A stretch of 64,000 nt of DNA from Microbacteriaceae bacterium (lineage in GTDB: Bacteria > Actinomycetota > Actinomycetes > Actinomycetales > Microbacteriaceae). The notes under the pieces were generated by a model, which saw only the letters and a list, made by a program, of their open reading frames with translations, was not told the origin of the DNA and made no database searches. Position 1 is the stretch's first letter, and every line of letters starts with the position of its first letter. Made by a program: the position numbers and the translations under genes. Below are positions 3,783 through 32,988 of this stretch, piece after piece. The DNA lies in assembly GCA_025464995.1 (NCBI GenBank), contig JAODMO010000056.1:109725-173724 (forward strand). The letters run 5' to 3'.

Positions 3783-4944
3783 GCGTCACGTCGTCGTCCC
3801 AGCTCCCGGGCAGCACCGCGAGCCACGACGCGATGTCCACCGTCCAGCGCGCGGAGTCGTAGTTCCACAGCTTCGTATGGCGGGCGACGCTGAAGGCGTC
3901 GAACGTCACGATGTCTGGACGCGCCTCCGCGAGAGCGCGTGACGAGAGCGACGGCACGTAGCCGTCATCGTCGCTGTGCATGAGCAGGATCGGGCGGCTG
4001 AGCTCGTCCGCGCGTGCCACGAAGTCGAGCCGGGCCAGGTCGATCGACTCCGCCTGGCCCGTGAGCCGCTTGCCCCACGCGTTGCCGATCACGGCGAGCA
4101 CCGCCTTGCTCGCGATATCCGGAAGCCGCATCCGGGCGCCTTGGAAACCGAGCACGCTCGCCCAGTCGATCACGGGTGAGTCGAGCACCATGCCGCTCAC
4201 GACGCCGGCGTGCACCGAGCGCGTGACCGTCTGCAGCACGATGGCGCCACCCATCGACCACCCCATGAGCACGATGCTCGTCGCGCCACGGCCGAGGGCG
4301 AACCGGATGGCCGCATCGACGTCGTGCCACTCGGCGTCACCAAGGGCGTACCTGTTGTCGTCGCTGCTCGGTGCGTCCTCGTCGTTGCGATAGGAGACGA
4401 GCAGAGAGGTGTAGCCCGCCTCGCGGAAGACAGGAACGGCCCGTAGCGTCTCGGAGCGACGGACGGCCCGTCCGTGCACCTGGATGACCCAGCGCCCGGC
4501 TCGCTCGAGCGCGCCGTCGTCTCCGGCGGGGATGAGCCAGGCGGGTGCCGGCCCGAGGTCGGTCTCGACGACGACATGCTCGAACGGGTATCCGAGGTCG
4601 CCCGGCTCGAGGTAGAACCAGGCGCCGATACGGGCACGGGCTCCGGGCAGCAGCCGTCCGAAGTCGACGGAGAGCAGCTCGCGTGTCACGCCCTCCGCGC
4701 CCGAGTCGACAATGGCGCCCACGCGGGCGTGGCCGGTTCCGTAGTCGAACCAGAGTCCGTAGCGCCCGGGAAGCAGCGTGTCCTGTGTGGCCGTGAGGGT
4801 GACGGTCGTTGCGGTGACATCGAGCACACGGATGTCCTCCTCCCGATTCTTCGGTGGAGTGACGACCTGCCGCGCGACGCGAACCGTGAGCGTCGCGGCG
4901 GCCGCCGTCGCGAGGGCGACGAAGCCGAGCACCCCGAGCACCAC
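3748..4944 (-). CDS. Alpha/beta fold hydrolase
   Basis: GWSMGGAIVLQ nucleophile elbow, LLMHSDDDGYVP, VARHTKLWNYD; N-terminal hydrophobic segment. Confidence 0.75.
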   Translation of the reverse strand: MVLGVLGFVALATAAAATLTVRVARQVVTPPKNREEDIRVLDVTATTVTLTATQDTLLPGRYGLWFDYGTGHARVGAIVDSGAEGVTRELLSVDFGRLLPGARARIGAWFYLEPGDLGYPFEHVVVETDLGPAPAWLIPAGDDGALERAGRWVIQVHGRAVRRSETLRAVPVFREAGYTSLLVSYRNDEDAPSSDDNRYALGDAEWHDVDAAIRFALGRGATSIVLMGWSMGGAIVLQTVTRSVHAGVVSGMVLDSPVIDWASVLGFQGARMRLPDIASKAVLAVIGNAWGKRLTGQAESIDLARLDFVARADELSRPILLMHSDDDGYVPSLSSRALAEARPDIVTFDAFSVARHTKLWNYDSARWTVDIASWLAVLPGSWDDDVTLRRRASRAPAV

Positions 4945-5072
4945 TCCCCCGGCTATCCGCCCGGCGACGGGAACGGGCTGCTGTGTGGTTGCGATGAGAA
5001 GCTCCCTCGTTTGCTGCCGCGGCGGCGGCGTGCCTCATCCGCAAAAATAGCAAGGAAGCCTAGGGTTCAGGT

Positions 5073-5669
5073 GTGCCCGACACACTTCCAGAAACGCCGG
5101 TCCCCGCAGCCTTCGCCGCTGCCCTTGAGGCCGTGCGGCGCGCGACGACACGCGCCGAGCTCGTCGTCACCGAGATCCCCGCCCCGTCGGGCCTCGCGCC
5201 GTGGTCGATCGCACTCGCCGCCGACGTCCGCCCCGCGGGCCACTCGGTCGACTCCGACTACGGCACTGGGCGATTCGTGCTCCTGTACGACCCGTCCGCT
5301 CCCGACGCGTGGGGCGGCGAGTTCCGGGTCGTGTGCTTCGCCCAGGCGCCACTCGAGACGGACATCGGTCTCGACCCCTTCCTCGCGAGCGTGGCGTGGT
5401 CGTGGCTCGTCGACGCGCTCGACTCGCGGGGCGCCCGCTACGACTCCGCATCGGGCACGGCTACGCGCATCCTGTCCACCGGCTTCGGCGAGCTCGAGGA
5501 GCAAGGCGATGGCGCCCAGATCGAGTTGCGGGCGTCGTGGACACCGCTCGACCACGACGTGACGTCACATGTGGAAGGCTGGGGCGAACTAGTGTGCATG
5601 CTGGCCGGCTTCCCGCCGACGGCTGAGGGAGTAAGTGTGTTGTCAACCCGTAGGGCGTCGCGTGACTGA
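5073..5669 (+). CDS. DUF3000 domain-containing protein
   Basis: 198 aa, matches the actinobacterial DUF3000 family upstream of the RNase D-like gene. Confidence 0.75.
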   Translation: MPDTLPETPVPAAFAAALEAVRRATTRAELVVTEIPAPSGLAPWSIALAADVRPAGHSVDSDYGTGRFVLLYDPSAPDAWGGEFRVVCFAQAPLETDIGLDPFLASVAWSWLVDALDSRGARYDSASGTATRILSTGFGELEEQGDGAQIELRASWTPLDHDVTSHVEGWGELVCMLAGFPPTAEGVSVLSTRRASRD

Positions 5670-6924
5670 CGAGAACCACGAGACCACGGAGGATTCCCGT
5701 CTGACGCCGCCCGCCATACAGGCGCCGCACACCACCGTCCACGTCATCGCGACGCGCGACGAGTACCTCCGCGCGGTCGATGCGATCGCGGCCGGACACG
5801 GCCCCATCGCGATCGACGCGGAGCGGGCAAGCGGCTACCGATATTCGCAGCGGGCCTATCTCATCCAGATCTTCCGTCGCGGGGCAGGCACGTTCCTGTT
5901 CGATCCCCCGGCGATCGGGGCGTTCACCGAGCTCAACGACGCCATCGGCGACGAGGAGTGGATCCTCCATGCGGCGAGCCAGGACCTGTCGTGCCTGCGC
6001 GAGATCGGCCTCAACCCCACCCGCATCTACGACACCGAACTGGCCGCCCGGCTCGCCGGGCTTCCCCGCGTCGGGCTCGGCACCGTCGTCGAGGAGCTGC
6101 TCGGCATCCACCTGGCCAAGGAGCACTCCGCCGCCGACTGGTCGACACGCCCGCTCCCCCAGGCGTGGCTCGTCTACGCGGCTCTCGACGTGGAACTGCT
6201 CGTCGACCTTCGCGAGAAGATGGGCGAGCTGCTCGAGGCCGACGGCAAGACGTTCATCGCCGACCAGGAATTCGCCTCCGTGGCGCTGCGCGACTTCACC
6301 ATCGTGCGCGTCGAGCCGTGGCGCCGCCTGAGCGGCCTCGCGTCGATCCGCGGCCAGCGCGGTCTCGCTGTAGCGCGCGAGCTGTGGCACGCCCGCGACG
6401 ACTACGCGAGGGAGATCGACACCGCGCCGGGACGCCTCGTTCCCGACACCGCCCTCACCGCCGCGGCGAAGGCGCTCCCGCCGAGCAAGCGCGACCTGGC
6501 CGCGATCAAGGAGTTCACTGGACGCGCGAGCCGTTCGCAGCTCGACCGCTGGTGGGCCGCTGTGGAGCGCGGCATGGCCACGACCGACCTCCCCACCACC
6601 CGAGCGCCCGGCGAGTCGATACCGGCGCCCCGCATCTGGTCCGATCGCAATCCCGAAGCCGACAAGCGGCTCAAGGCCGCCCGCGCGGCGCTCACCGAGC
6701 TGTCCGACTTCTTCCACATCCCGCTCGAGAACCTGCTGACGCCCGACACGCTGCGGCGCGTCGCCTGGTCGCCACCGGAGCCGCTCACCGTGGAGTCGAT
6801 CATCGGCGCCCTCGCCGAGCTCGGCGCGAGGCCGTGGCAGGTTGACGTGACCGCACAGAAGATCCTCGTCGCCTTTGTGGAAGCTAACCAAAGCATCGAA
6901 GCACCGGCCGAATCCGCTTCGTAG
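5662..6924 (+). CDS. Ribonuclease D-like 3'-5' exonuclease with HRDC domain
   Basis: GPIAIDAERASGYRYSQRAYLIQI, HAASQDLSCLREIG, C-terminal HRDC; GTG start VTDENHETTED. Confidence 0.87.
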   Translation: MTDENHETTEDSRLTPPAIQAPHTTVHVIATRDEYLRAVDAIAAGHGPIAIDAERASGYRYSQRAYLIQIFRRGAGTFLFDPPAIGAFTELNDAIGDEEWILHAASQDLSCLREIGLNPTRIYDTELAARLAGLPRVGLGTVVEELLGIHLAKEHSAADWSTRPLPQAWLVYAALDVELLVDLREKMGELLEADGKTFIADQEFASVALRDFTIVRVEPWRRLSGLASIRGQRGLAVARELWHARDDYAREIDTAPGRLVPDTALTAAAKALPPSKRDLAAIKEFTGRASRSQLDRWWAAVERGMATTDLPTTRAPGESIPAPRIWSDRNPEADKRLKAARAALTELSDFFHIPLENLLTPDTLRRVAWSPPEPLTVESIIGALAELGARPWQVDVTAQKILVAFVEANQSIEAPAESAS

Positions 6925-8204: not shown

Positions 8205-10342
8205 TGGCCTACGAATTCAGCGCGAGCGACTTCGCCGAACTCGCATCGTTCTCCGGCGACGAGGTCGTGACGCGCTCGTTCGTGCGCGACATCCCGCTCT
8301 CCGGCGGCAAGACGCTCGCCCTCATCACGCTCGACAACGGCCGTGACCACACGCGACCGAACACCCTGGGCCCGGTGACACTGCTCGAGCTCGCGGGGGT
8401 GCTCGACGAACAGAAGGCGCGCGCCGCGCGCGGCGAGATCGCGGGCGTCGCCGTGACGGGAAAGCCATTCATCCTCGCGGCAGGCGCCGACCTGTCGAAG
8501 GTGAGCGACATCCCGAGCCGGGCGATCGCCAAGCAGATGGCGCAGCTCGGCCACTGGACGCTCGGAAAGCTCTCCGAGCTCGGTGTGCCGTCGTTCGTAT
8601 TCATCAACGGCCTCGCGCTCGGTGGCGGGGTCGAGATCCCGCTCAACGCCGATTACCGCACTATCGATCGATCGGTTCCCGCGCTCGCCCTGCCCGAGGT
8701 CTTCCTCGGCATCATCCCCGGCTGGGGCGGCGCGTGGCTGCTTCCCAACCTCATCGGCATCGAGAATGCTCTCAAGGTCGTCATCGAGAACCCTTTGAAG
8801 AACAACAGGACCCTCAAGGGCCAGGAAGCGTTCGACCTCGGCATCGCCGACGCGATCTTCGACCCGGCGAGCTTCCTCGAGGATTCGATCGCATGGGCCG
8901 ACGGCGTGATCGCCGGACGCATCAGCGTGAAGCGTCCCAACCTGCCGGGCAAGATCGAGCGCACCGTCAAGTGGCCGATTGCCATCGAAATGGCCGAGCG
9001 CATGCTCAAGAGCCGCATCGGCACGGTCGCCCAGTCGCCGTACCGGGCGCTCGAACTGCTCAAGGCAGCAGCCCGCACCGACAAGCACACCGGTTTCGCC
9101 GCGGAGGACGACGCCCTCGCCGACCTCATCAGCGGCGACCAGTTCAAGGCGAGCATCTACGCGTTCAATCTCGTGCAGAAGCGCGCGAAGCGCCCCGCCG
9201 GCGCCCCCGACAAGGGAACCGCCCACCCAGTGACGAAGGTCGGCATCATCGGTGCGGGACTCATGGCGAGCCAGTTCGCGCTGCTGTTCGTGCGCCGGCT
9301 GCAGGTACCCGTCGTCATCACCGACCTCGACCAGGGTCGAGTCGACAAGGGCGTCACCGGCATCCATTCCGAGATCGACGCTCTCCTGGCGAAGGGCCGC
9401 GTCAACGGCGACGAGTCGAACCGGCTCAAGGCGCTCGTGACCGGCACGACGAACAAGGCCGACTTCGCCGACTGCGACTGGGTGATCGAGGCGATCTACG
9501 AGGAGCTCGACGCCAAGCAGGACGTGTTCGCCGAGATCGAGCGCCACGTCTCCCCCGAGACCGTGCTTGCGACCAACACGTCGTCGCTCTCGGTGGAGAA
9601 GATCGGCGCGAAGCTCGCGCATCCCGAACGCCTCGTCGGCTTCCACTTCTTCAACCCCGTGGCGGTGATGCCGCTGATCGAGGTGGTCAAGACGCCGCGG
9701 ACGAACGAGCAGACGCTGTCCACGGCTATGGTGACTGCGGCCAAGCTGCGCAAGAACGCCGTCATCACCCGCGACACCCCCGGCTTCGTGGTCAACCGCA
9801 TCCTCGCCAAAGTGCTGGGCGAGGCGATGCACGCGGTCGACACCGGCACGCCGTTCGAGGTCGTCGAGCAGTCGACGAAACCCTTCGGGTTGCCGATGAC
9901 GCCGTTCGAGCTGCTCGAGCTCGTCGGGCTCAAGGTCGGCGCGCACGTGCTCGACACCCACCACGCGGCGTTCCCCGACCGCTTCTTCGACAGCGTCAAC
10001 CTGCACAGGCTCGCCGAGCTCGGGCACATCTTCGAGCGCGACTCGAAGGGCAAGGTGAAGGGCATCGACAAGCGTGCGCAGGAGATCGTCTCGGGCGGGA
10101 CGAGCCCGATGACGGCCGAGCAGTTGCAGACCCGCATCGAAGACGGCCTGGCCGACGAGATCCACCGGATGCTGGACGACAAGGTCGTCGAGGCGGCGGA
10201 GGACGTCGACCTCTGCCTCATCCTCGGTGCCGGCTACCCATTCCAGATGGGCGGAGCGACCCCCTACCTCGACCGCGTCGGCGCTTCGGATCGCGTCTTC
10301 GGATCGACGTTTCACACGCCTCCGATTCGCGGAATGGCATAG
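8204..10342 (+). CDS. fadB: 3-hydroxyacyl-CoA dehydrogenase/enoyl-CoA hydratase multifunctional protein
   Basis: TGATG overlap with thiolase; crotonase domain (FINGLALGGGVEIPLNADYR) then VGIIGAGLMASQFALLF NAD domain and FHFFNPVAVMPLIEVV. Confidence 0.92.
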   Translation: MAYEFSASDFAELASFSGDEVVTRSFVRDIPLSGGKTLALITLDNGRDHTRPNTLGPVTLLELAGVLDEQKARAARGEIAGVAVTGKPFILAAGADLSKVSDIPSRAIAKQMAQLGHWTLGKLSELGVPSFVFINGLALGGGVEIPLNADYRTIDRSVPALALPEVFLGIIPGWGGAWLLPNLIGIENALKVVIENPLKNNRTLKGQEAFDLGIADAIFDPASFLEDSIAWADGVIAGRISVKRPNLPGKIERTVKWPIAIEMAERMLKSRIGTVAQSPYRALELLKAAARTDKHTGFAAEDDALADLISGDQFKASIYAFNLVQKRAKRPAGAPDKGTAHPVTKVGIIGAGLMASQFALLFVRRLQVPVVITDLDQGRVDKGVTGIHSEIDALLAKGRVNGDESNRLKALVTGTTNKADFADCDWVIEAIYEELDAKQDVFAEIERHVSPETVLATNTSSLSVEKIGAKLAHPERLVGFHFFNPVAVMPLIEVVKTPRTNEQTLSTAMVTAAKLRKNAVITRDTPGFVVNRILAKVLGEAMHAVDTGTPFEVVEQSTKPFGLPMTPFELLELVGLKVGAHVLDTHHAAFPDRFFDSVNLHRLAELGHIFERDSKGKVKGIDKRAQEIVSGGTSPMTAEQLQTRIEDGLADEIHRMLDDKVVEAAEDVDLCLILGAGYPFQMGGATPYLDRVGASDRVFGSTFHTPPIRGMA

Positions 10343-10348
10343 GCCCCC

Positions 10349-10388
10349 TCGACAGGCTCAGGCACCGTGCGGTCGCCGAGCCTGTCGA
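10349..10388. repeat. Imperfect inverted repeat between convergent fadB and aldo/keto reductase genes
   Basis: Arms tcgacaggctc / gagcctgtcga, 11 bp matched. Confidence 0.6.
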
Positions 10389-10397
10389 AGCGTGGTG

Positions 10398-11371
<974 letters not shown>

Positions 11372-11375
<4 letters not shown>

Positions 11376-11755
11376 GGTCCGTCTACCTTCTTCGTGTAAT
11401 TGGCTATCTTGTAGTCGATGTGGTCGAGGCTCCGGGTGATCGTGTCGAGTTGCGCGGCGACAGCGATGCGGTGCTCGAGGAGCAGGTCTCGCCTCGCCTC
11501 GATCGTCGAGTCGCCCGCGCGCACGAGCTGCACGTACTCCCGCATCTTCGAGATCGGCATCGATGTGCCCCGCAGCTTGGTGAGGAACAGCACCCAGTTC
11601 ACGTCGGCGGTCGAGTACCTCCGGTGTTGCGATGACGCCCTGTCGACCGCGTGCAGCATCAGCCCCGCTCGCTCGTAGTACCGGAGCGTGTGGGTGCTCA
11701 GGCCGGTGGCCTCCGCGACCTCGGAGATTGCGAGGGACTCTTCCGTGATCGACAT
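11372..11755 (-). CDS. MerR family transcriptional regulator
   Basis: [24 protein letters not shown]; 4-bp overlap with the downstream aldo/keto reductase. Confidence 0.92.
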
Positions 11756-11902
11756 GACTACAGGCTAGAACTTCGAGCGCGCTCTAAGTCAAGCCGGCTG
11801 CAATCGGATGGTGCTGGCCGGTGTCGGCTGCGCGCACCACGGCCTCTTCATGACGAGCAGCATCCACTGCCTGGCAAGCAGCCTCGACGGCTTCATCGCC
11901 TC

Positions 11903-13861
11903 CTACTCGCGGCTTGCCTGCGGCTCGAAGTCGGCGTCTTCGGGCAGGGGACGCGCCACGGGGATCTTGCTGCCGAGCACCTGCGAGACCAGGTCGCGCG
12001 CGATGCGCTGCGGGGTGAGGCCGACGCGCTCGAGGATCTGGTCTCGCGTGCCGTGGTCGAGGAACTCGTCGGGGAGGCCGATCTCGGTGACGGCCGTGTC
12101 GACGCCCGCTGCGCGGAGGTCTTGCCTGATGCGTGTGCCGATACCGGCGACGCGCACGCCGTCCTCGATGGAGACGACGATGCGGTGCTCGGCCGAGAAC
12201 CCGATGATGCTCTCCGGAACGGGCACGACCCAGCGCGGGTCCACGACCGTCGCGCCGATTCCCTGGGCGGCGAGCCGCTCGGCGACCTGCAGCCCGAGCT
12301 TCGCCATCGGGCCGACCGTGATGATGAGCACGTCCTTGTTGGCGGCCTCCCGCAGCACGTCGACGCCGTCATGCGTGCGCCGTAACGCCTCGAACTCGGT
12401 GCCGACAGAGCCCTTCGAGAACCGAACGACGGTGGGTCCGTCGTCGACGGCGACGGCCTCGCGCAGCTCCTCGCGCAAGCGGCTCGCGTCGCGCGGGGCG
12501 GCGATGCGGATGTTCGGCACGACCTGCAGGATCGCGAGGTCCCACATCCCGTGGTGGCTGGGCCCATCCGGTCCCGTCACGCCGGCACGGTCGAGCACGA
12601 ACGTGACGCCCGCCTTGTGCAGCCCGACGTCCATGAGCACCTGGTCGAAGGCGCGGTTGACGAAGGTCGCGTACATGGCGACGACCGGATGCAGCCCGCC
12701 GAAGGCCAGCCCGGCGGCCGACGTCACCGCGTGCTGCTCGGCGATGCCGACGTCGAGCACCCGGTTCGGGAACTTCTCTGCGAACTTGTGCAGGCCCGTC
12801 GGACGCAGCATCGCGGCCGTGATGCCGACGATGAGCGGGTTCTGGGTCGCGAGCTCGACGATCTCGTCGGAGAACACCGACGTCCACGACGGCTTGCTCG
12901 CTACCTCGATCGGTTCGCCCGTCTCGGGATCGATCTGCCCGACCGCGTGGAACTGGTCGGCGGTGTCGGCGAGGGCGGGTTCGTAGCCTCGCCCCTTCTC
13001 GGTGATCGCGTGGACGATGACCGGCGCGCCGTAGTTCTTCGCCTGCTGCAGGGCCGCCTGCATCGCCTGCAGGTCGTGGCCGTGGATCGGACCGATGTAC
13101 TTGATGTCGAGGTTCGAATAAAGTGCGTCGTTGTTAGTGAAGCGACTGAGGAAGCCATGGGTGCCACCGCGGATGCCGCGGTAGAACGCGCGACCCGGCG
13201 TGCCCAACTTGGCGAACAGCTTCTCGCTCGACCGGTGCAGCTGCCGGTAGCTGCTTCGGGTGCGCACGTCGTTGAGGAAGTGCGCCATCCCGCCGATGGT
13301 CGGAGCATAGGATCGCCCGTTGTCGTTGACGACGATCACGAGATTGCGCGAGTTGTCGTCGCTGATGTTGTTGAGCGCCTCCCACGTCATGCCACCCGTG
13401 AGAGACCCGTCGCCGACGACGGCGACGACGTGCCGGTCTGTCTGGCCCAGCATGGTGAACGCGCGCGAGATGCCGTCGGCCCACGAGAGAGAGCTCGATG
13501 CGTGCGAGCTCTCTACGATGTCGTGCGGCGACTCCGAACGCTGGGGGTAGCCGGCGAGGCCGCCCTCGAGACGGAGCCTGCTGAAATCCTGCCGTCCCGT
13601 GAGCAGCTTGTGCACGTAGGTCTGGTGGCCCGTATCGAAGACTATGGCGTCATGTGGCGAGTCGAAGACGCGGTGGATCGCGAGGGTCAACTCGACCACG
13701 CCGAGATTCGGCCCGAGATGCCCGCCGGTCTTCGACACCTCGGTCACGAGGAATTGCCGGATCTCCGCGGCCAACTCGACAAGCTGGCTCTGGGAGAGGG
13801 CATCCAGGTCACGAGGACCGGTGATTCCCTTGAGCAATCCTGTGTTGTGGAGAGGCACCAT
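11903..13861 (-). CDS. dxs: 1-deoxy-D-xylulose-5-phosphate synthase
   Basis: GGHLGPNLGVVELTLAIHRVF, VVAVVGDGSLTGGM, GIAEQHAVTSAAGLA. Confidence 0.95.
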   Translation of the reverse strand: MVPLHNTGLLKGITGPRDLDALSQSQLVELAAEIRQFLVTEVSKTGGHLGPNLGVVELTLAIHRVFDSPHDAIVFDTGHQTYVHKLLTGRQDFSRLRLEGGLAGYPQRSESPHDIVESSHASSSLSWADGISRAFTMLGQTDRHVVAVVGDGSLTGGMTWEALNNISDDNSRNLVIVVNDNGRSYAPTIGGMAHFLNDVRTRSSYRQLHRSSEKLFAKLGTPGRAFYRGIRGGTHGFLSRFTNNDALYSNLDIKYIGPIHGHDLQAMQAALQQAKNYGAPVIVHAITEKGRGYEPALADTADQFHAVGQIDPETGEPIEVASKPSWTSVFSDEIVELATQNPLIVGITAAMLRPTGLHKFAEKFPNRVLDVGIAEQHAVTSAAGLAFGGLHPVVAMYATFVNRAFDQVLMDVGLHKAGVTFVLDRAGVTGPDGPSHHGMWDLAILQVVPNIRIAAPRDASRLREELREAVAVDDGPTVVRFSKGSVGTEFEALRRTHDGVDVLREAANKDVLIITVGPMAKLGLQVAERLAAQGIGATVVDPRWVVPVPESIIGFSAEHRIVVSIEDGVRVAGIGTRIRQDLRAAGVDTAVTEIGLPDEFLDHGTRDQILERVGLTPQRIARDLVSQVLGSKIPVARPLPEDADFEPQASRE

Positions 13862-27319: not shown

Positions 27320-27553
27320 ATGTCTCAAATCGCCACAGAGAACACCGTTGACGAACTTGAGCCTGCGTACACGCTCACGGCCCTCGACCGCTGCGACAGC
27401 TGCGGCGCGCAGGCCTACGTCCGCGTGACCATGCAGAGCGGCGAGCTGCTGTTCTGCGCGCACCACGGTGCAGAGTTCAAGGAGAAGCTGTCTGCGACCG
27501 CTCTCCATTGGCACGACGAGTCCGGGCGCCTCGCCCAGGCCGCGCGCAACTAG
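27320..27553 (+). CDS. DUF7455-type small zinc-finger-like protein
   Basis: 77 aa: LTALDRCDSCGAQAYVRVTMQSGELLFCAHHGAEFKEKL. Confidence 0.75.
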   Translation: MSQIATENTVDELEPAYTLTALDRCDSCGAQAYVRVTMQSGELLFCAHHGAEFKEKLSATALHWHDESGRLAQAARN

Positions 27554-27579: not shown

Positions 27580-28344
27580 GTGCGCTCGGCGAGCATCGAT
27601 CTCGCTGCGCTTGCCCGCAACATCCATTCTCTCACTGACGCCCTCGGTGTCGACCAGCCGCTGGTCGACCTGAGGGCGTCGGCGTATGGTCATGGCCTCG
27701 TGGCGGTAGCTCGAGCGAGTGAGGCCGCCGGGGCCACCGCCCTCCGGGTCTCGAGCGTCGCCGATGCGTCCGTCCTGCGCGACGCCGGCATCGAATGCGA
27801 CCTGCTGGCCGCCGCCTGTGAGCCGAGCACTGACGCGGCGACCCTCGGCGTGCGCCTCCTCGACGATTCCGTCGAGAGCCGGGATGCCGCGGACTCCCGC
27901 GATCTCGGAGCGGGCGTGTACGGTCTCGACCCGTCGCCCGCCTCCCCCACGACCGCGGTCATGACGCTCAGTGCCGAGGTCATCGCCGTCAAGACGGTGA
28001 GAGCCGGCACCGGCGTCTCCTACGGCTACACCTATCGTGCCCCCGGCGACACCGCCATCGCGCTCGTCTCGATCGGGTACGCCGACGGGGTGCCCCGACT
28101 CGGGTCGAATACGGCGACCGCGGCGCTCGGCGGCGGCATCCATCCCGTCGTCGGCCGCATAGCCATGGACCAGCTCGTGCTCGACATCGGTCGCACGACC
28201 GCCACACCCGGCGACCTCGCCACCATCTTCGGCGACGCGGCAGACGGGGTCCCCACGGCCCTCGACTGGGCTCTGCGCACTCGACGCGCGCCGCTCGCGC
28301 TCACCGCCGGTCTTGGCCGCCGAGTCGTCAGGACGCACTCGTGA
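27580..28344 (+). CDS. Truncated alanine racemase paralog (C-terminal domain kept, PLP lysine lost)
   Basis: LVDLRASAYGHG (Arg at PLP-Lys position), middle of barrel absent, then VYGLDPSP, TGVSYGYTYRAPGDTAIALVSIGYADGVPR, VVGRIAMDQLVLDIG. Confidence 0.82.
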   Translation: MRSASIDLAALARNIHSLTDALGVDQPLVDLRASAYGHGLVAVARASEAAGATALRVSSVADASVLRDAGIECDLLAAACEPSTDAATLGVRLLDDSVESRDAADSRDLGAGVYGLDPSPASPTTAVMTLSAEVIAVKTVRAGTGVSYGYTYRAPGDTAIALVSIGYADGVPRLGSNTATAALGGGIHPVVGRIAMDQLVLDIGRTTATPGDLATIFGDAADGVPTALDWALRTRRAPLALTAGLGRRVVRTHS

Positions 28345-29438
28345 GCGCCGCCCTCGCGACGATCGACCTCGAGGCCTTCCGGCGCAACGTGCGCCTCCTC
28401 GTCGACCTTGTCGCGCCGTCCGAGGTCATGCTCGCCGTGAAGGCTGACGCCTACGGACACGGCGTTCTGCCGATGTCGCTCGCCGCCCTGGAAGCGGGGG
28501 CGACGGCCCTCGCGGTGCTCGAGGTCGGTGCGGGGCTCGAGCTACGCGCGGCGGGCGTGACCGTTCCACTCTTCGCCTGGCTGCACGGCACCGCAACCGA
28601 CTTCCGCGCCGCCGCCGAGAACCACATCGACGTCGGCGTCTCGGCCGTGTGGCAGCTCGAGGCGATCGCAGAGAGCGGCGCCGAGGTGCCCGCGCGGGTT
28701 CACCTGAAGATCGACACCGGTCTGAGCCGCAACGGCGCGAGCGTGGAGGACTGGCCGAAGCTCGTCGCCACGGCGCTCCACCTCGAGTCGCAGGGCTTCC
28801 TCGAGGTGTACGGCGCCTGGTCGCACCTCGCCGATGCCTCGGTCGCCGACGACGAGATCGCGCTCGCCAAGTTCACGGTGGCGGTCGAGGTGGCGACGAG
28901 TCTCGGCGCGCGATTCAGCAAACTGCATCTCGCGGCAAGCTCTGCGGGCATCCGGATGCCGGCCGCACGCTTCGACTATGTGCGCTTCGGCATCGCGGCC
29001 TTCGGCATCTCGCCCTTCGACGACGTCGACGGTCGAGGCCTCGGGCTCGAGGCGCCCATGACGCTGAGCGCGCCCGTGCTGTCCGTGCACGAACTCGGCG
29101 CCGGACCCGCGAGCATCGCCGGCCTCGACGTCGACCTCGACGAACCGGCCACCGTCGCCCTGCTCGCCATCGGCTACGGTGACGGCGTGCAGGCGCCCGC
29201 CGTCGAGCGCGCCGAGGTGCTGCTCGGTGGAGAGCGCCGACGCATCATCGCGCTCGGTGCCGACCGCATGCTCGTCGACGCCGACGATGTGGCCGCCTCC
29301 CCCGGCGACCGGGTGGTGCTGTTCGGCAGCGCCGAACGGGGCGAACCGACGGCCGAGGAGTGGGCGGGTCACGCCGACAGCATCGGCGACGAGGTCGTCG
29401 TGAGCGTCTCGCCGCGCGTCGAGCGCGTCTACGTCTGA
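28341..29438 (+). CDS. alr: Alanine racemase paralog (PLP barrel intact, C-terminal catalytic motifs altered)
   Basis: GTGA overlap with previous ORF; LAVKADAYGHG, LKIDTGLSRNG, WSHLADA, FDYVRFGIAAFG kept; VSYG and GRIxMD absent (ASIAGLD, GADRMLVD). Confidence 0.85.
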   Translation: MSAALATIDLEAFRRNVRLLVDLVAPSEVMLAVKADAYGHGVLPMSLAALEAGATALAVLEVGAGLELRAAGVTVPLFAWLHGTATDFRAAAENHIDVGVSAVWQLEAIAESGAEVPARVHLKIDTGLSRNGASVEDWPKLVATALHLESQGFLEVYGAWSHLADASVADDEIALAKFTVAVEVATSLGARFSKLHLAASSAGIRMPAARFDYVRFGIAAFGISPFDDVDGRGLGLEAPMTLSAPVLSVHELGAGPASIAGLDVDLDEPATVALLAIGYGDGVQAPAVERAEVLLGGERRRIIALGADRMLVDADDVAASPGDRVVLFGSAERGEPTAEEWAGHADSIGDEVVVSVSPRVERVYV

Positions 29439-29515: not shown

Positions 29516-30907
29516 ATGTCCAGACAGATTCGATTCAACGCCTTTGACATGAACTGCGTCGCCCACCAGTCCTCCGGGATGTGGCGCCACCCCGACGACG
29601 AGTCGTGGCGCTATAAAGACCTCACCTATTGGACCGAGCTGGCGAAGCTCCTCGAGCGGGGCATGTTCGATGGGATCTTCATCGCCGACGTGCTCGGCAC
29701 CTACGACGTCTACGGCGGTTCGAACGAGGCCGCCATCCGTCACGGCGCCCAGGTTCCCGTCAACGACCCGGTGCTGCTCGTCTCGGCCATGGCGCTCGTG
29801 ACGACGGACCTCGGTTTCGGTATAACCGCGGGAACCGCCTACGAGCACCCGTACCCGTTCGCGCGGCGCATGTCGACTCTCGACCACCTCACCGGAGGCC
29901 GGGTCGGATGGAACGTCGTGACGGGATACCTTCCGTCTGCCGCACGCAACATGGGACAGGACGACCAGCTCGAACACGACGACCGCTACGACGTGGCCGA
30001 CGAGTACCTCGAGGTGCTGTACAAGCTGTGGGAGGGTTCCTGGGAAGACGACGCCGTCATCCGCGACCGCCGATCGGGTGTCTTCACCGACCCGACCAAG
30101 GTGCACGAGATCGGCCACGCGGGCAAGCACTTCACCGTGCCGGGAATGCACCTCTCCGAGCCATCAACCCAGCGCACCCCCGTCATCTACCAGGCCGGCG
30201 CCTCGCCCCGTGGCATCGCGTTCGCGGCGGGCAACGCGGAGGCGATCTTCGTCGCGTCGCCCACGAAGGCCGGGCTGAAGGCAACCGTGTCACGCATCCG
30301 GGATGCCCTCGAGGCCGAGGGCCGCGACCGCTACTCGGCGCGCATCTACACCCTGCTCACGATCATCACCGACGAGACGCCCGAGCTCGCGCGCGCGAAG
30401 TACGAGGACTACCTCGGGTACGCGAGCGAGGAGGGCGCCCTCGTCTTCATGTCCGGGTGGATGGGCATCGACCTGTCGACCTACGACCTCGACGAGCCCA
30501 TCGGCAACGTGAAGAGCAACGCCATCCAATCGACGGTCGCGAACTTCCAAGCGGCGAACGAGGACGGCAGCGAGTGGACGGTGCGTGATATCGCGCGCCT
30601 GGGAGCGATCGGCGGGCTCGGACCCTTCGTCGTGGGTTCGGGTGAGGAGATCGCCGACCAGCTTCAGGAGTGGGTCGACGAGACCGACGTCGACGGGTTC
30701 AACCTCGCCTACGCCATCACCCCCGGCACGTTCGAGGACGTCGTCGAGCACGTGATTCCCGTGTTGCAGGCGCGCGGCGCCTATCCCGAGTCGTACGTGC
30801 CGGGAGGGCTGCGCAACAAGCTCCATGGGCGCGGCGACCGCCTGCCACCCGAGCACCGGGGCGCGAGCTACCGGTTCGGCGGCGCGAACTCGACGTCGGC
30901 GCGCTGA
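29516..30907 (+). CDS. NtaA/SnaA/DszA-type flavin-dependent monooxygenase (LLM class)
   Basis: MSRQIRFNAFDMNCVAHQSSGMWRHPDDES, GRVGWNVVTGYLPSAARNMG, YQAGASPRGIAFAA. Confidence 0.88.
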   Translation: MSRQIRFNAFDMNCVAHQSSGMWRHPDDESWRYKDLTYWTELAKLLERGMFDGIFIADVLGTYDVYGGSNEAAIRHGAQVPVNDPVLLVSAMALVTTDLGFGITAGTAYEHPYPFARRMSTLDHLTGGRVGWNVVTGYLPSAARNMGQDDQLEHDDRYDVADEYLEVLYKLWEGSWEDDAVIRDRRSGVFTDPTKVHEIGHAGKHFTVPGMHLSEPSTQRTPVIYQAGASPRGIAFAAGNAEAIFVASPTKAGLKATVSRIRDALEAEGRDRYSARIYTLLTIITDETPELARAKYEDYLGYASEEGALVFMSGWMGIDLSTYDLDEPIGNVKSNAIQSTVANFQAANEDGSEWTVRDIARLGAIGGLGPFVVGSGEEIADQLQEWVDETDVDGFNLAYAITPGTFEDVVEHVIPVLQARGAYPESYVPGGLRNKLHGRGDRLPPEHRGASYRFGGANSTSAR

Positions 30908-30937: not shown

Positions 30938-31687
30938 CTACAGCCCGAGCCGCTTCGCGATCGCTGTGCGCGCCTGCGCGGCGGCGGCGTCGACACGAGC
31001 CACGCGCTCGTCGGTGCCGAGGGCGGTGTCGAGGCCACGGAACGCGAGTGCCGAGCGCAGCATCCGGTCGGCGTAGGTCGGGTTCATCGGCAGAAACGGT
31101 CCGTGCAGGTTTGTGCCGATGCTGTCGCCCTCGACCACGCCCTCGGTGCGGGCTGCGGATGCAGCGACCCCGCCGTTGCCGTAGCCGGCCGTCACCGTTC
31201 CGAGCGGACGCGCGCCGGCGCCGAGAGTGACGACGGCGCCGTGGTTCTCGAAGCCTGCGACGCTGCCGTCACCGGTCTCGACCATGATCTCCCCCACGGC
31301 GCGCGCGGCGACGAGCCTGCTCGTCGTGTCGAAGACGCCCGCGCCGTCGACGACCGCGCCATCCTCTTCGACGAGCGAGGAGCCGAGCAACTGCCAGCCG
31401 CCGGCTATGGCGAGCACCGGCACGCCGGCGAGCTTCCACTCCCGCAAGCGGGCTGCGATGAGCGCGAGATCGGCGCGGACGGCGAGCTGAGCCGTGCGAG
31501 GGCCGGAACCGATGTGAATGATGTCGACGGAGTGGGGAAGGGCATCGCCGACGTTGTGCTCGACGACGGTGGCCGTGATGCCGCGCCAGCGGGCACGCTC
31601 GACGAGCGCGAGGACGTTGCCTGAGTCGCCGTTGATTCCGAGCTGCTTCGGATACAGCGCGAGGATCGTCAACGAGCGAGCGGTCAC
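30938..31687 (-). CDS. GatD-like type 1 glutamine amidotransferase lacking the catalytic cysteine
   Basis: LYPKQLGINGDSGNVLALVERARWRG, VLAIAGGWQLLG (Ala for Cys), AGFENHGA, NLHGPFLPMNP (His kept); no Cys in the protein. Confidence 0.88.
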   Translation of the reverse strand: MTARSLTILALYPKQLGINGDSGNVLALVERARWRGITATVVEHNVGDALPHSVDIIHIGSGPRTAQLAVRADLALIAARLREWKLAGVPVLAIAGGWQLLGSSLVEEDGAVVDGAGVFDTTSRLVAARAVGEIMVETGDGSVAGFENHGAVVTLGAGARPLGTVTAGYGNGGVAASAARTEGVVEGDSIGTNLHGPFLPMNPTYADRMLRSALAFRGLDTALGTDERVARVDAAAAQARTAIAKRLGL

Positions 31688-32988
31688 GGTGCCTTCTCCA
31701 ACTCGAGGAAGCCGAGCAGTTTGCGTATGAGCATCATCTGCTCGTAGTTGACGATCATGGTCTTGGTTCCCCGCGAGGGGGCGGGCAACGCGAGGAAGGC
31801 CTCGAGCGCGGGACGCAGCTCCGGCATGACGCGACCGACGGCGATCTCGCCGTAGCCGAAGCGCGTCGCGAGCTGCCACGCCTTCGTGCCCGACAGGATG
31901 TCGACGTGGTCGATGCTCGAGAAGTCGGTGTCGTACATCCACGACGGGTCGGGCGTGCCCTCGTCGACGGCGACGAAAAGCTGCTCGGGTGCCTCCGCAA
32001 GATAGTCGAGGTTCAACTGCAGGCTCGGCGGGTTCTTCATCATGATGACCTCGATGTCTTCGCCGTTGTAGCGGAGCACCTCGCCCCTCCCGTACACGGT
32101 CTCGAGCGTCAGCATCGCGGATGCCACGAGATCGGGCCGGAACGCATCACCGAGCAGTCGCTCCGCCATCGCCGCCGCGCCCGCCACGTCGACGGCGTAG
32201 TGCAGGCCGCGAGCGGGCAACCGCACGGCCACCTCGCCGCCGGGCATCGCGAGCACGGCGTCGACGCCGGAGAGGCTCTCGACCAGGATGTGGGGAACGG
32301 GAGCCGGGGCATCCATGGTGCCCGTGGCTCGCGTCGAATACACCTGCGCGTTGGCGAGGCCGTTCGGCGAGTCGCTGAGCAGGGCCGGCTCGACGCCGAA
32401 GTAGCTGACCCGGGAGCGGCCGTCGAGGGCCCGCGCGACGTTGACGAGGTTGTCGTCGTTCGCGTTGACGACGACGTGGGCGTCTGCCGCCGACGCGATG
32501 GTCGCGAGCATTCCGACAACGCGGTCGGGCTCGAAGAAGCGGTTCAACTGGTCGATCTGCACGTTCATGAGCAGCACACTCGAGGGGCGGAGCACCTTCG
32601 CGAGGTTCACCCCGTAGGCCTCGTCGACCTCGAGCACGGCGATCTGCTCGTCGAGGCGCCCGCTGAGGGGCATGCTCGCGAGGAGCGCCGAGGCGATGCC
32701 CTGCGGCAGGTTGCCGCCGGACGGGTTGCTGAACACATCCACGCCGTGGGCGCGGAGGATCGCGACGAGCATGTTCGTCGTGGTCGACTTACCGTTCGAC
32801 CCCGAGACGAAGACGACGCCGAGCGGCATGCGCTCGACGGCTCGTTCGAGGGCGCGGGGGGCGACGGCGAGCAGCACCCGCCCGGGCACCGCGGAGCCGC
32901 CACCACGCAACCTCGTGGCCCAGCGCGCCATCCTGCCGAGCAGGATGCCGACGACCGTGCGCACCTCGTAAGTACCGGTGGTTCGCAC
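31684..32988 (-). CDS. MurT-like Mur ligase (DUF1727) lacking the Cys4 zinc ribbon
   Basis: FVSGSNGKSTTTNMLVAIL P-loop, NPSGGNLPQGIASALL, DUF1727-like C-terminus; overlaps gatD-like start by 4 bp; no Cys in the protein. Confidence 0.87.
   Translation of the reverse strand: MRTTGTYEVRTVVGILLGRMARWATRLRGGGSAVPGRVLLAVAPRALERAVERMPLGVVFVSGSNGKSTTTNMLVAILRAHGVDVFSNPSGGNLPQGIASALLASMPLSGRLDEQIAVLEVDEAYGVNLAKVLRPSSVLLMNVQIDQLNRFFEPDRVVGMLATIASAADAHVVVNANDDNLVNVARALDGRSRVSYFGVEPALLSDSPNGLANAQVYSTRATGTMDAPAPVPHILVESLSGVDAVLAMPGGEVAVRLPARGLHYAVDVAGAAAMAERLLGDAFRPDLVASAMLTLETVYGRGEVLRYNGEDIEVIMMKNPPSLQLNLDYLAEAPEQLFVAVDEGTPDPSWMYDTDFSSIDHVDILSGTKAWQLATRFGYGEIAVGRVMPELRPALEAFLALPAPSRGTKTMIVNYEQMMLIRKLLGFLELEKAP

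Follow-up and report, generated by a model that had tools for sequence, protein, structure and literature searches.

The window, a 64,000-nucleotide stretch of a contig from a Microbacteriaceae bacterium, carries two adjacent forward-strand genes that are both related to the alanine racemase (Alr) gene alr. Each starts with GTG, and the stop codon of the first (ORF1) overlaps the start codon of the second (ORF2) in the tetranucleotide GTGA, as the first-pass annotation of this DNA had reported; from this overlap we infer that the two genes are translationally coupled. That annotation gave ORF1 255 residues, where the gene encodes 254 plus the stop codon; its length for ORF2 was correct. The features of the pair are as follows.

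27580-28344, + strand: ORF1, here called the trans subunit; GTG start, 254 amino acids plus stop; truncated alr paralogue
27673-27675, + strand: AGG, Arg of ORF1 at the position of the pyridoxal phosphate (PLP) lysine, Lys39
28021-28023, + strand: TAC, Tyr148 of ORF1, equivalent of Tyr265 (second catalytic base), retained
28165-28167, + strand: ATG, equivalent of Met312 in GRIAMDQ, retained in ORF1
28341-28344, + strand: GTGA, overlap of the ORF1 stop and the ORF2 start
28341-29438, + strand: ORF2, here called the cis subunit; GTG start, 365 amino acids; complete two-domain alr paralogue
28440-28442, + strand: AAG, Lys34 of ORF2, PLP lysine (Lys39 equivalent), retained
29103-29129, + strand: GPASIAGLD in ORF2, in place of the VSYG loop that bears Tyr265
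29256-29264, + strand: GAD in ORF2, in place of the A/C-Met312-Asp of GRIxMD

Directly upstream of ORF1, a small cysteine-containing ORF (CDSCGAQAYVRV...CAHHG; 27320-27553, + strand) possibly belongs to the same operon. ORF2 is followed by a flavin-dependent monooxygenase, LLM-class-like as judged by eye (29516-30907, + strand), which had no tblastn match in any related locus and appears to lie outside the ORF1-ORF2 system. Homologues of gatD-murT also adjoin the pair (30938-32988, − strand), and these neighbors are conserved at many of its loci. Within the genus, gatD was found in the genomes with the pair (G000, G038, and G171) and was not found in those where no pair was found (G112 and G222). 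A functional link between the pair and gatD-murT is nevertheless not relied on, because gatD is present in 170 of the 250 genomes of the family, which makes the association weak.

The two-domain Alr fold consists of a barrel and a beta domain; ORF2 has both, and in ORF1 the beta domain is accompanied by only the initial part of the barrel. The Pfam models Ala_racemase_N and Ala_racemase_C each matched ORF2 in full. ORF1, a barrel remnant with a complete C-terminal domain, matched only positions 1-84 of the 220 in Ala_racemase_N, together with the entire Ala_racemase_C. With the NCBIfam model for alanine racemase (TIGR00492, EC 5.1.1.1), ORF2 scored 194.0 bits, above the curated cutoff of 168, and ORF1 scored 129.5 bits, below it; a system in which one gene can be called an alanine racemase and the other falls under the cutoff is easily overlooked.

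Alignment to the Alr of G. stearothermophilus showed that ORF1 lacks nearly all of positions 95-215 (about 110 barrel residues are gone) and has Arg at 39, Tyr at 265 and 284, and Ala/Met/Asp at 311-313. In the same alignment, ORF2 has K39, Y43, R136, H166, S204, and R219, with Ala at 265, Gly/Ala at 311/312, and Asp at 354. Alignment and Pfam thus bear out the first-pass description of ORF1 (Arg at the PLP-lysine position, loss of the middle of the barrel, and a retained VSYG/GRIAMDQ region), and the alignment likewise upholds its observation that VSYG and GRIxMD are replaced in ORF2. Its further claim that ORF2 keeps the cis set of active-site residues holds for K39, Y43, S204, and R219 and fails for Tyr354, which is Asp.

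Single-chain AlphaFold2 models were obtained for both proteins. The ORF2 model (pLDDT 94.2, pTM 0.91) had S. lavendulae Alr (1VFH) as its best PDB match, with a TMq of 0.96. The ORF1 model had a pLDDT of 89.5 and a pTM of 0.86, and its best PDB matches were Alr folds in which the middle region is skipped, with TMq values mostly of 0.77-0.88. ORF1 is predicted with high confidence to fold on its own. Plasmid spread was considered and rejected; the best matches were ordinary Alr proteins of at most 42% identity.

Next, the distribution of the pair was examined. Homologues of ORF1 and ORF2 were searched for in 250 Microbacteriaceae genomes, from which 64 stretches were fetched, and an ORF1-ORF2-like pair was present in many genera of the family. 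An exact-pattern scan for D-x-R-A-D-A-Y-G-H-G over 85,462 species genomes yielded 40 loci, 37 of which carry alr-family genes of the split kind (one of them, L104 of Homoserinibacter gongjuensis, is cut by the locus end); the three loci without any alr gene look like chance matches. Among the named hosts, Leifsonia is the most frequent; the others are Pseudoclavibacter, Gulosibacter, Homoserinibacter, Salinibacterium, Protaetiibacter, Diaminobutyricibacter, and two Microbacterium metagenome-assembled genomes. Such recurrence in many separate assemblies rules out chance or an assembly artifact.

Loci L037 to L136 contain 72 truncated-then-full and 4 full-then-truncated neighbor pairs, on the same strand and mostly overlapping, where the counts refer to loci rather than species and some genome stretches were fetched twice. 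Among the full-context loci of this set there was no case of a truncated subunit alone, and partnerless genes occurred only at locus or contig ends. Most truncated-then-full loci are adjoined by parE, and gatD-murT also lies beside many. At one locus (L057, genome G227), two trans-cis pairs lie close together (4178-6555 and 9265-12002), and the second trans subunit, which keeps part of the barrel, is an apparent intermediate. Loss of ORF1 alone in close relatives, raised in the first-pass annotation as a point that would tell against its reading, was not seen; ORF1 and ORF2 occur together in G000, G038, and G171, and no pair of this type was found in the congeneric genomes G112 and G222.

Residue statistics were compiled from distinct sequences, comprising 75 trans (ORF1-type), 68 cis (ORF2-type), and 29 intact proteins, with five rows (intact genes cut by locus ends) excluded. 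Lys39 was present in none of the 75 ORF1-types and in all 68 ORF2-types, and the distribution was reversed for Tyr265 (75/75 and 0/68) and Met312 (75/75 and 0/68); because positions 39, 265, and 312 served to define the classes, these three columns are not independent evidence, and the remaining columns are. The residue at position 39 in ORF1-types was R (57), S (7), T (6), A (4), or G (1) and never K. The Tyr265 loop was deleted or replaced in every ORF2-type and deleted outright in 65 of the 68. Arg290 was found in 75/75 trans and 4% of cis subunits; R136, H166, and R219 were found in 68/68 cis subunits and were lost in trans subunits save for a few edge-cut rows. No mixed class (proteins with neither half, or ORF1-types that had regained Lys39) was observed, and the one row outside the classes, out of 181, is a frame-damaged fragment.

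Of the columns that intact proteins conserve, trans subunits alone retain R6, G262-Y265, L277, L279, V280, Y284, A285, R290, G308, R309, A311, M312, D318, and G361, and cis subunits alone retain a set that includes K39, K129, R136, H166, H200, and R219. In published Alr structures, Tyr265', Tyr284', Arg290', and Arg309' are on the partner side and the PLP contacts are on the lysine side (PMC3485190, PMC3245724); Arg309' is assigned by the M. tuberculosis numbering Arg316', and one of the two papers prints the residue without the prime. The trans-only and cis-only columns match these published sets. Within the C-terminal domain, present in both subunits, the lent residues were enriched in trans-only columns (6/7 versus 10/39; Fisher P = 0.005).

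We propose that ORF1 and ORF2 form an obligate heterodimeric racemase whose single active site is a composite of the two, a reading to which we assign a probability of roughly 0.87. The complementary residue sets, gene adjacency, conservation, selection, and fusions are observed, and association, catalysis, and substrate are inferred. ORF2 would bind PLP on Lys39 and provide the cis wall of the site, and ORF1 would reach across the dimer interface to provide Tyr265' (the base on the opposite face), Tyr284', Arg290', Arg309', and Met312'. The other site would be dead, with ORF1 having neither a PLP lysine nor a complete barrel. The first-pass annotation had already read the pair as an obligate heterodimer, and the residue split, coupling, selection, coevolution, fusions, and Alr-less genomes all fit that part of its account, in which association and catalysis are still predictions, and none of them fits pseudogenization.

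Position 354 departs from the canonical site. The residue there is D in 43, E in 18, and Y in 7 of the 68 ORF2-types, whereas Tyr354 of Alr is an inner-gate residue associated with alanine specificity; it contacts the PLP phosphate (PMC3485190) and controls which substrates gain access (PMC3485190, PMC3245724). The replacement by D or E in 61/68 cis subunits is what a heterodimer with some other PLP chemistry, such as decarboxylation or transamination, might display in this type. Against such an enzyme, both bases (Lys39 and Tyr265') and the racemization-favoring Arg219 are strictly kept, and a nonracemase would have no need of both bases, so that this alternative appears improbable.

Both subunits are under purifying selection, with pairwise dN/dS ratios of 0.08-0.49 in the trans set and 0.08-0.30 in the cis set. 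Trans and cis protein distances were correlated (r = 0.82), as they also were with parE distances held (partial r = 0.75; permutation P = 0.0005), over 46 nonredundant loci at which coinheritance of the cassette could contribute to the correlation. Fusions of the two halves in one reading frame were also found. The trans part precedes the cis part in G236, where a long Ala-rich linker joins them, and in G245; cis-then-trans fusions lie at the alr locus in G073, G137, and G236. The trans part of the G245 fusion is full length but degenerate and has no PLP lysine, indicating that the lysine can be lost without the deletion having come first.

These data bear on whether ORF1 could be a decaying pseudogene beside an ORF2 that is a self-sufficient racemase with a replaced Tyr265. 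ORF1 has indeed lost about 110 residues and its PLP lysine, and in most pairs its rate of evolution exceeds that of ORF2. We nevertheless regard decay as very unlikely, given dN/dS values well below 1, the invariance of Y265, R290, and M312 across all 75 ORF1-types, the presence of ORF1 beside ORF2 at all complete loci and its retention in fusions, and the deletion of the Tyr265 loop from most ORF2-types with no obvious substitute base. These results support the first-pass argument that reciprocal loss speaks against pseudogenization. Two checks proposed there, co-occurrence and dN/dS across the Microbacteriaceae, showed the genes paired at all full-context loci and selection on both to be purifying.

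A second type of split or fused gene lies at the housekeeping alr locus. At the loci read, the place where alr normally sits, glmS-[alr]-tsaE-tsaB-tsaD, is taken by a pair that has Thr204 and Tyr354 or by the fused version of that pair, the neighbors having been named by eye from those in the same genome. An intact Alr is missing from six genomes that are 97 to 99% complete (G077, G141, G194, G240, G236, and G137). In each of the first four, two split pairs account for all four PF00842 matches; G236 has its four matches in two fusions, and G137 has both of its matches in a single fusion of 629 residues. G073 has a further distant Alr-family protein (locus L168, G073:C9, 3190-4359; 389 amino acids, with VGYERTH and PGMNCL motifs) and so differs from G236 and G137 in having another Alr-like gene.

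Ddl scored above its cutoff in all four genomes of the Alr-less set that were tested. No D-amino-acid transaminase reached the model cutoff in the G077-type genomes or in G236. Fold-type IV aminotransferases do occur in Alr-less genomes, and the single one of G137 is probably IlvE. Unless these genomes have some other source of D-Ala, their half-site proteins have to function as a racemase, and the split or fused version at the housekeeping locus very probably makes D-Ala. The Alr-less genomes are the strongest functional argument for half-site racemases, but they bear on this second type and not on the window pair. Besides the canonical Ddl, a second Ddl-like ligase that scored 210 to 218 bits, below the Ddl cutoff, was observed in G137 (C3:111533-112417), G236 (C1:65906-66823), G077 (C4:333757-334668), and G240 (C1:3364154-3365065); it could be a D-amino-acid ligase. 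That ORF1 is a prozyme-like regulatory subunit of canonical Alr, with ORF2 a decoy or scaffold, would suit the canonical Alr of the window genome and the dead-paralogue activators known in trypanosomatids (PMC3663545) but is highly improbable, since the six genomes have no canonical Alr to regulate, the PLP-lysine side is kept in 68/68 ORF2-types, and the fusions at the loci read join an ORF1-type to an ORF2-type, never to an intact Alr.

The substrate of the proposed heterodimeric racemase of the window was considered next. The first-pass annotation had weighed whether a canonical alr elsewhere might account for all activity; an intact alr does exist in the window genome, on contig C52 beside glmS (locus L001), and the ORF1-ORF2 pair therefore need not supply its D-Ala. 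Together with Asp in place of Tyr354, this suggests that the substrate is probably not alanine. Asp or Glu at 354 could favor a cationic side chain, and the window type could have a chemistry different from that of the second type, in which Tyr354 is retained. The broad-specificity racemases Lyr and Bar are marked by an Arg-Asn pair at 136/137 and a residue other than Tyr at 354. R136, N137, and D354 are all present in ORF2, but N137 is also usual in canonical Microbacteriaceae Alr and so does not discriminate. Pair-bearing genera include ones with wall diaminobutyrate or D-ornithine, namely, Gulosibacter (wall cited in PMC6113628) and Salinibacterium (listed with Lys and Orn in PMC7033078), and no gene assigned to the D-diamino-acid racemization step of group-B peptidoglycan was found in the literature searched. 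We tentatively suggest, at somewhat worse than even odds, a diamino acid of group-B peptidoglycan (D-Dab, D-Orn, or D-Lys); were this guess true, a missing cell-wall gene would be supplied.

The origin of the half-site genes was examined with trees. Tandem complete alr genes occur at the glmS-tsaE site (L063, L064, and L093 to L096), and their second copy has Ser204 and Asp354; it is likely a relative of the window-type cis subunit. Window-type cis subunits were placed near these second tandem genes, and housekeeping-type cis subunits were placed with canonical alr. A single clade for all half-site cis subunits was rejected (AU test, P = 6.6e-5), and one for the window-type cis subunits (the ORF2 lineage) was not (AU test, P = 0.49), indicating that, under the model used, half-site cis subunits arose at least twice. 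Window-type trans subunits form one group; for the remaining trans subunits, long branches leave the origin uncertain. Put together, homodimeric Alr may have become an obligate heterodimer, or a single-chain pseudo-heterodimer, with one composite site at least twice in the Microbacteriaceae, with the window type now a D-diamino-acid racemase and the other type a replacement for the housekeeping Alr, although this combined scenario has a less than even chance of being right in every part.

Alr is the textbook symmetric homodimer and an antibiotic target. Both ORFs are homologous to homodimeric Alr (TIGR00492; G. stearothermophilus, S. lavendulae 1VFH, and M. tuberculosis 1XFC), and, position 354 aside, their residues taken together are those of one Alr active site. 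Where homodimeric Alr has one gene and two sites, the system described here has two genes, each with half a site, and one predicted site per dimer. Strych and Benedik reportedly used complementation between laboratory Alr mutants in 2002. Their mutants, in work cited in PMC3245724, served to show that Alr must dimerize; the shared-site principle is alike, whereas those were engineered mutants and these are natural genes. No published precedent for a natural heteromeric Alr was found in the literature searched, and, as far as that literature shows, the architecture is undescribed; it is real and conserved. In it, an enzyme that is normally symmetric with two sites appears to have become asymmetric with one, and the series from intact gene to tandem intact paralogues, half-site subunits, and fused chain would be an unusually complete case of subfunctionalization of a shared active site, repeated within one family. 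The series makes it testable why one active site can be dropped, and it offers a natural single-site racemase for mechanism studies. The lysine racemase Lyr, the broad-specificity racemase Bar (PMC3485190), and the serine racemase VanT belong to the same superfamily as ORF2. Lyr and Bar likewise lack the Tyr354 equivalent (Thr391 and Ala393), where ORF2 is acidic instead, but they are homodimers with two complete sites and resemble ORF2 less than canonical actinobacterial Alr does (at most 87 bits, compared with 213 bits for S. lavendulae Alr). The trypanosomatid prozymes of deoxyhypusine synthase and AdoMetDC (PMC3663545) are eukaryotic members of unrelated families in which a dead paralogue activates its partner allosterically; ORF1, by comparison, would lend catalytic residues directly to a partner whose gene is coupled or fused to its own.
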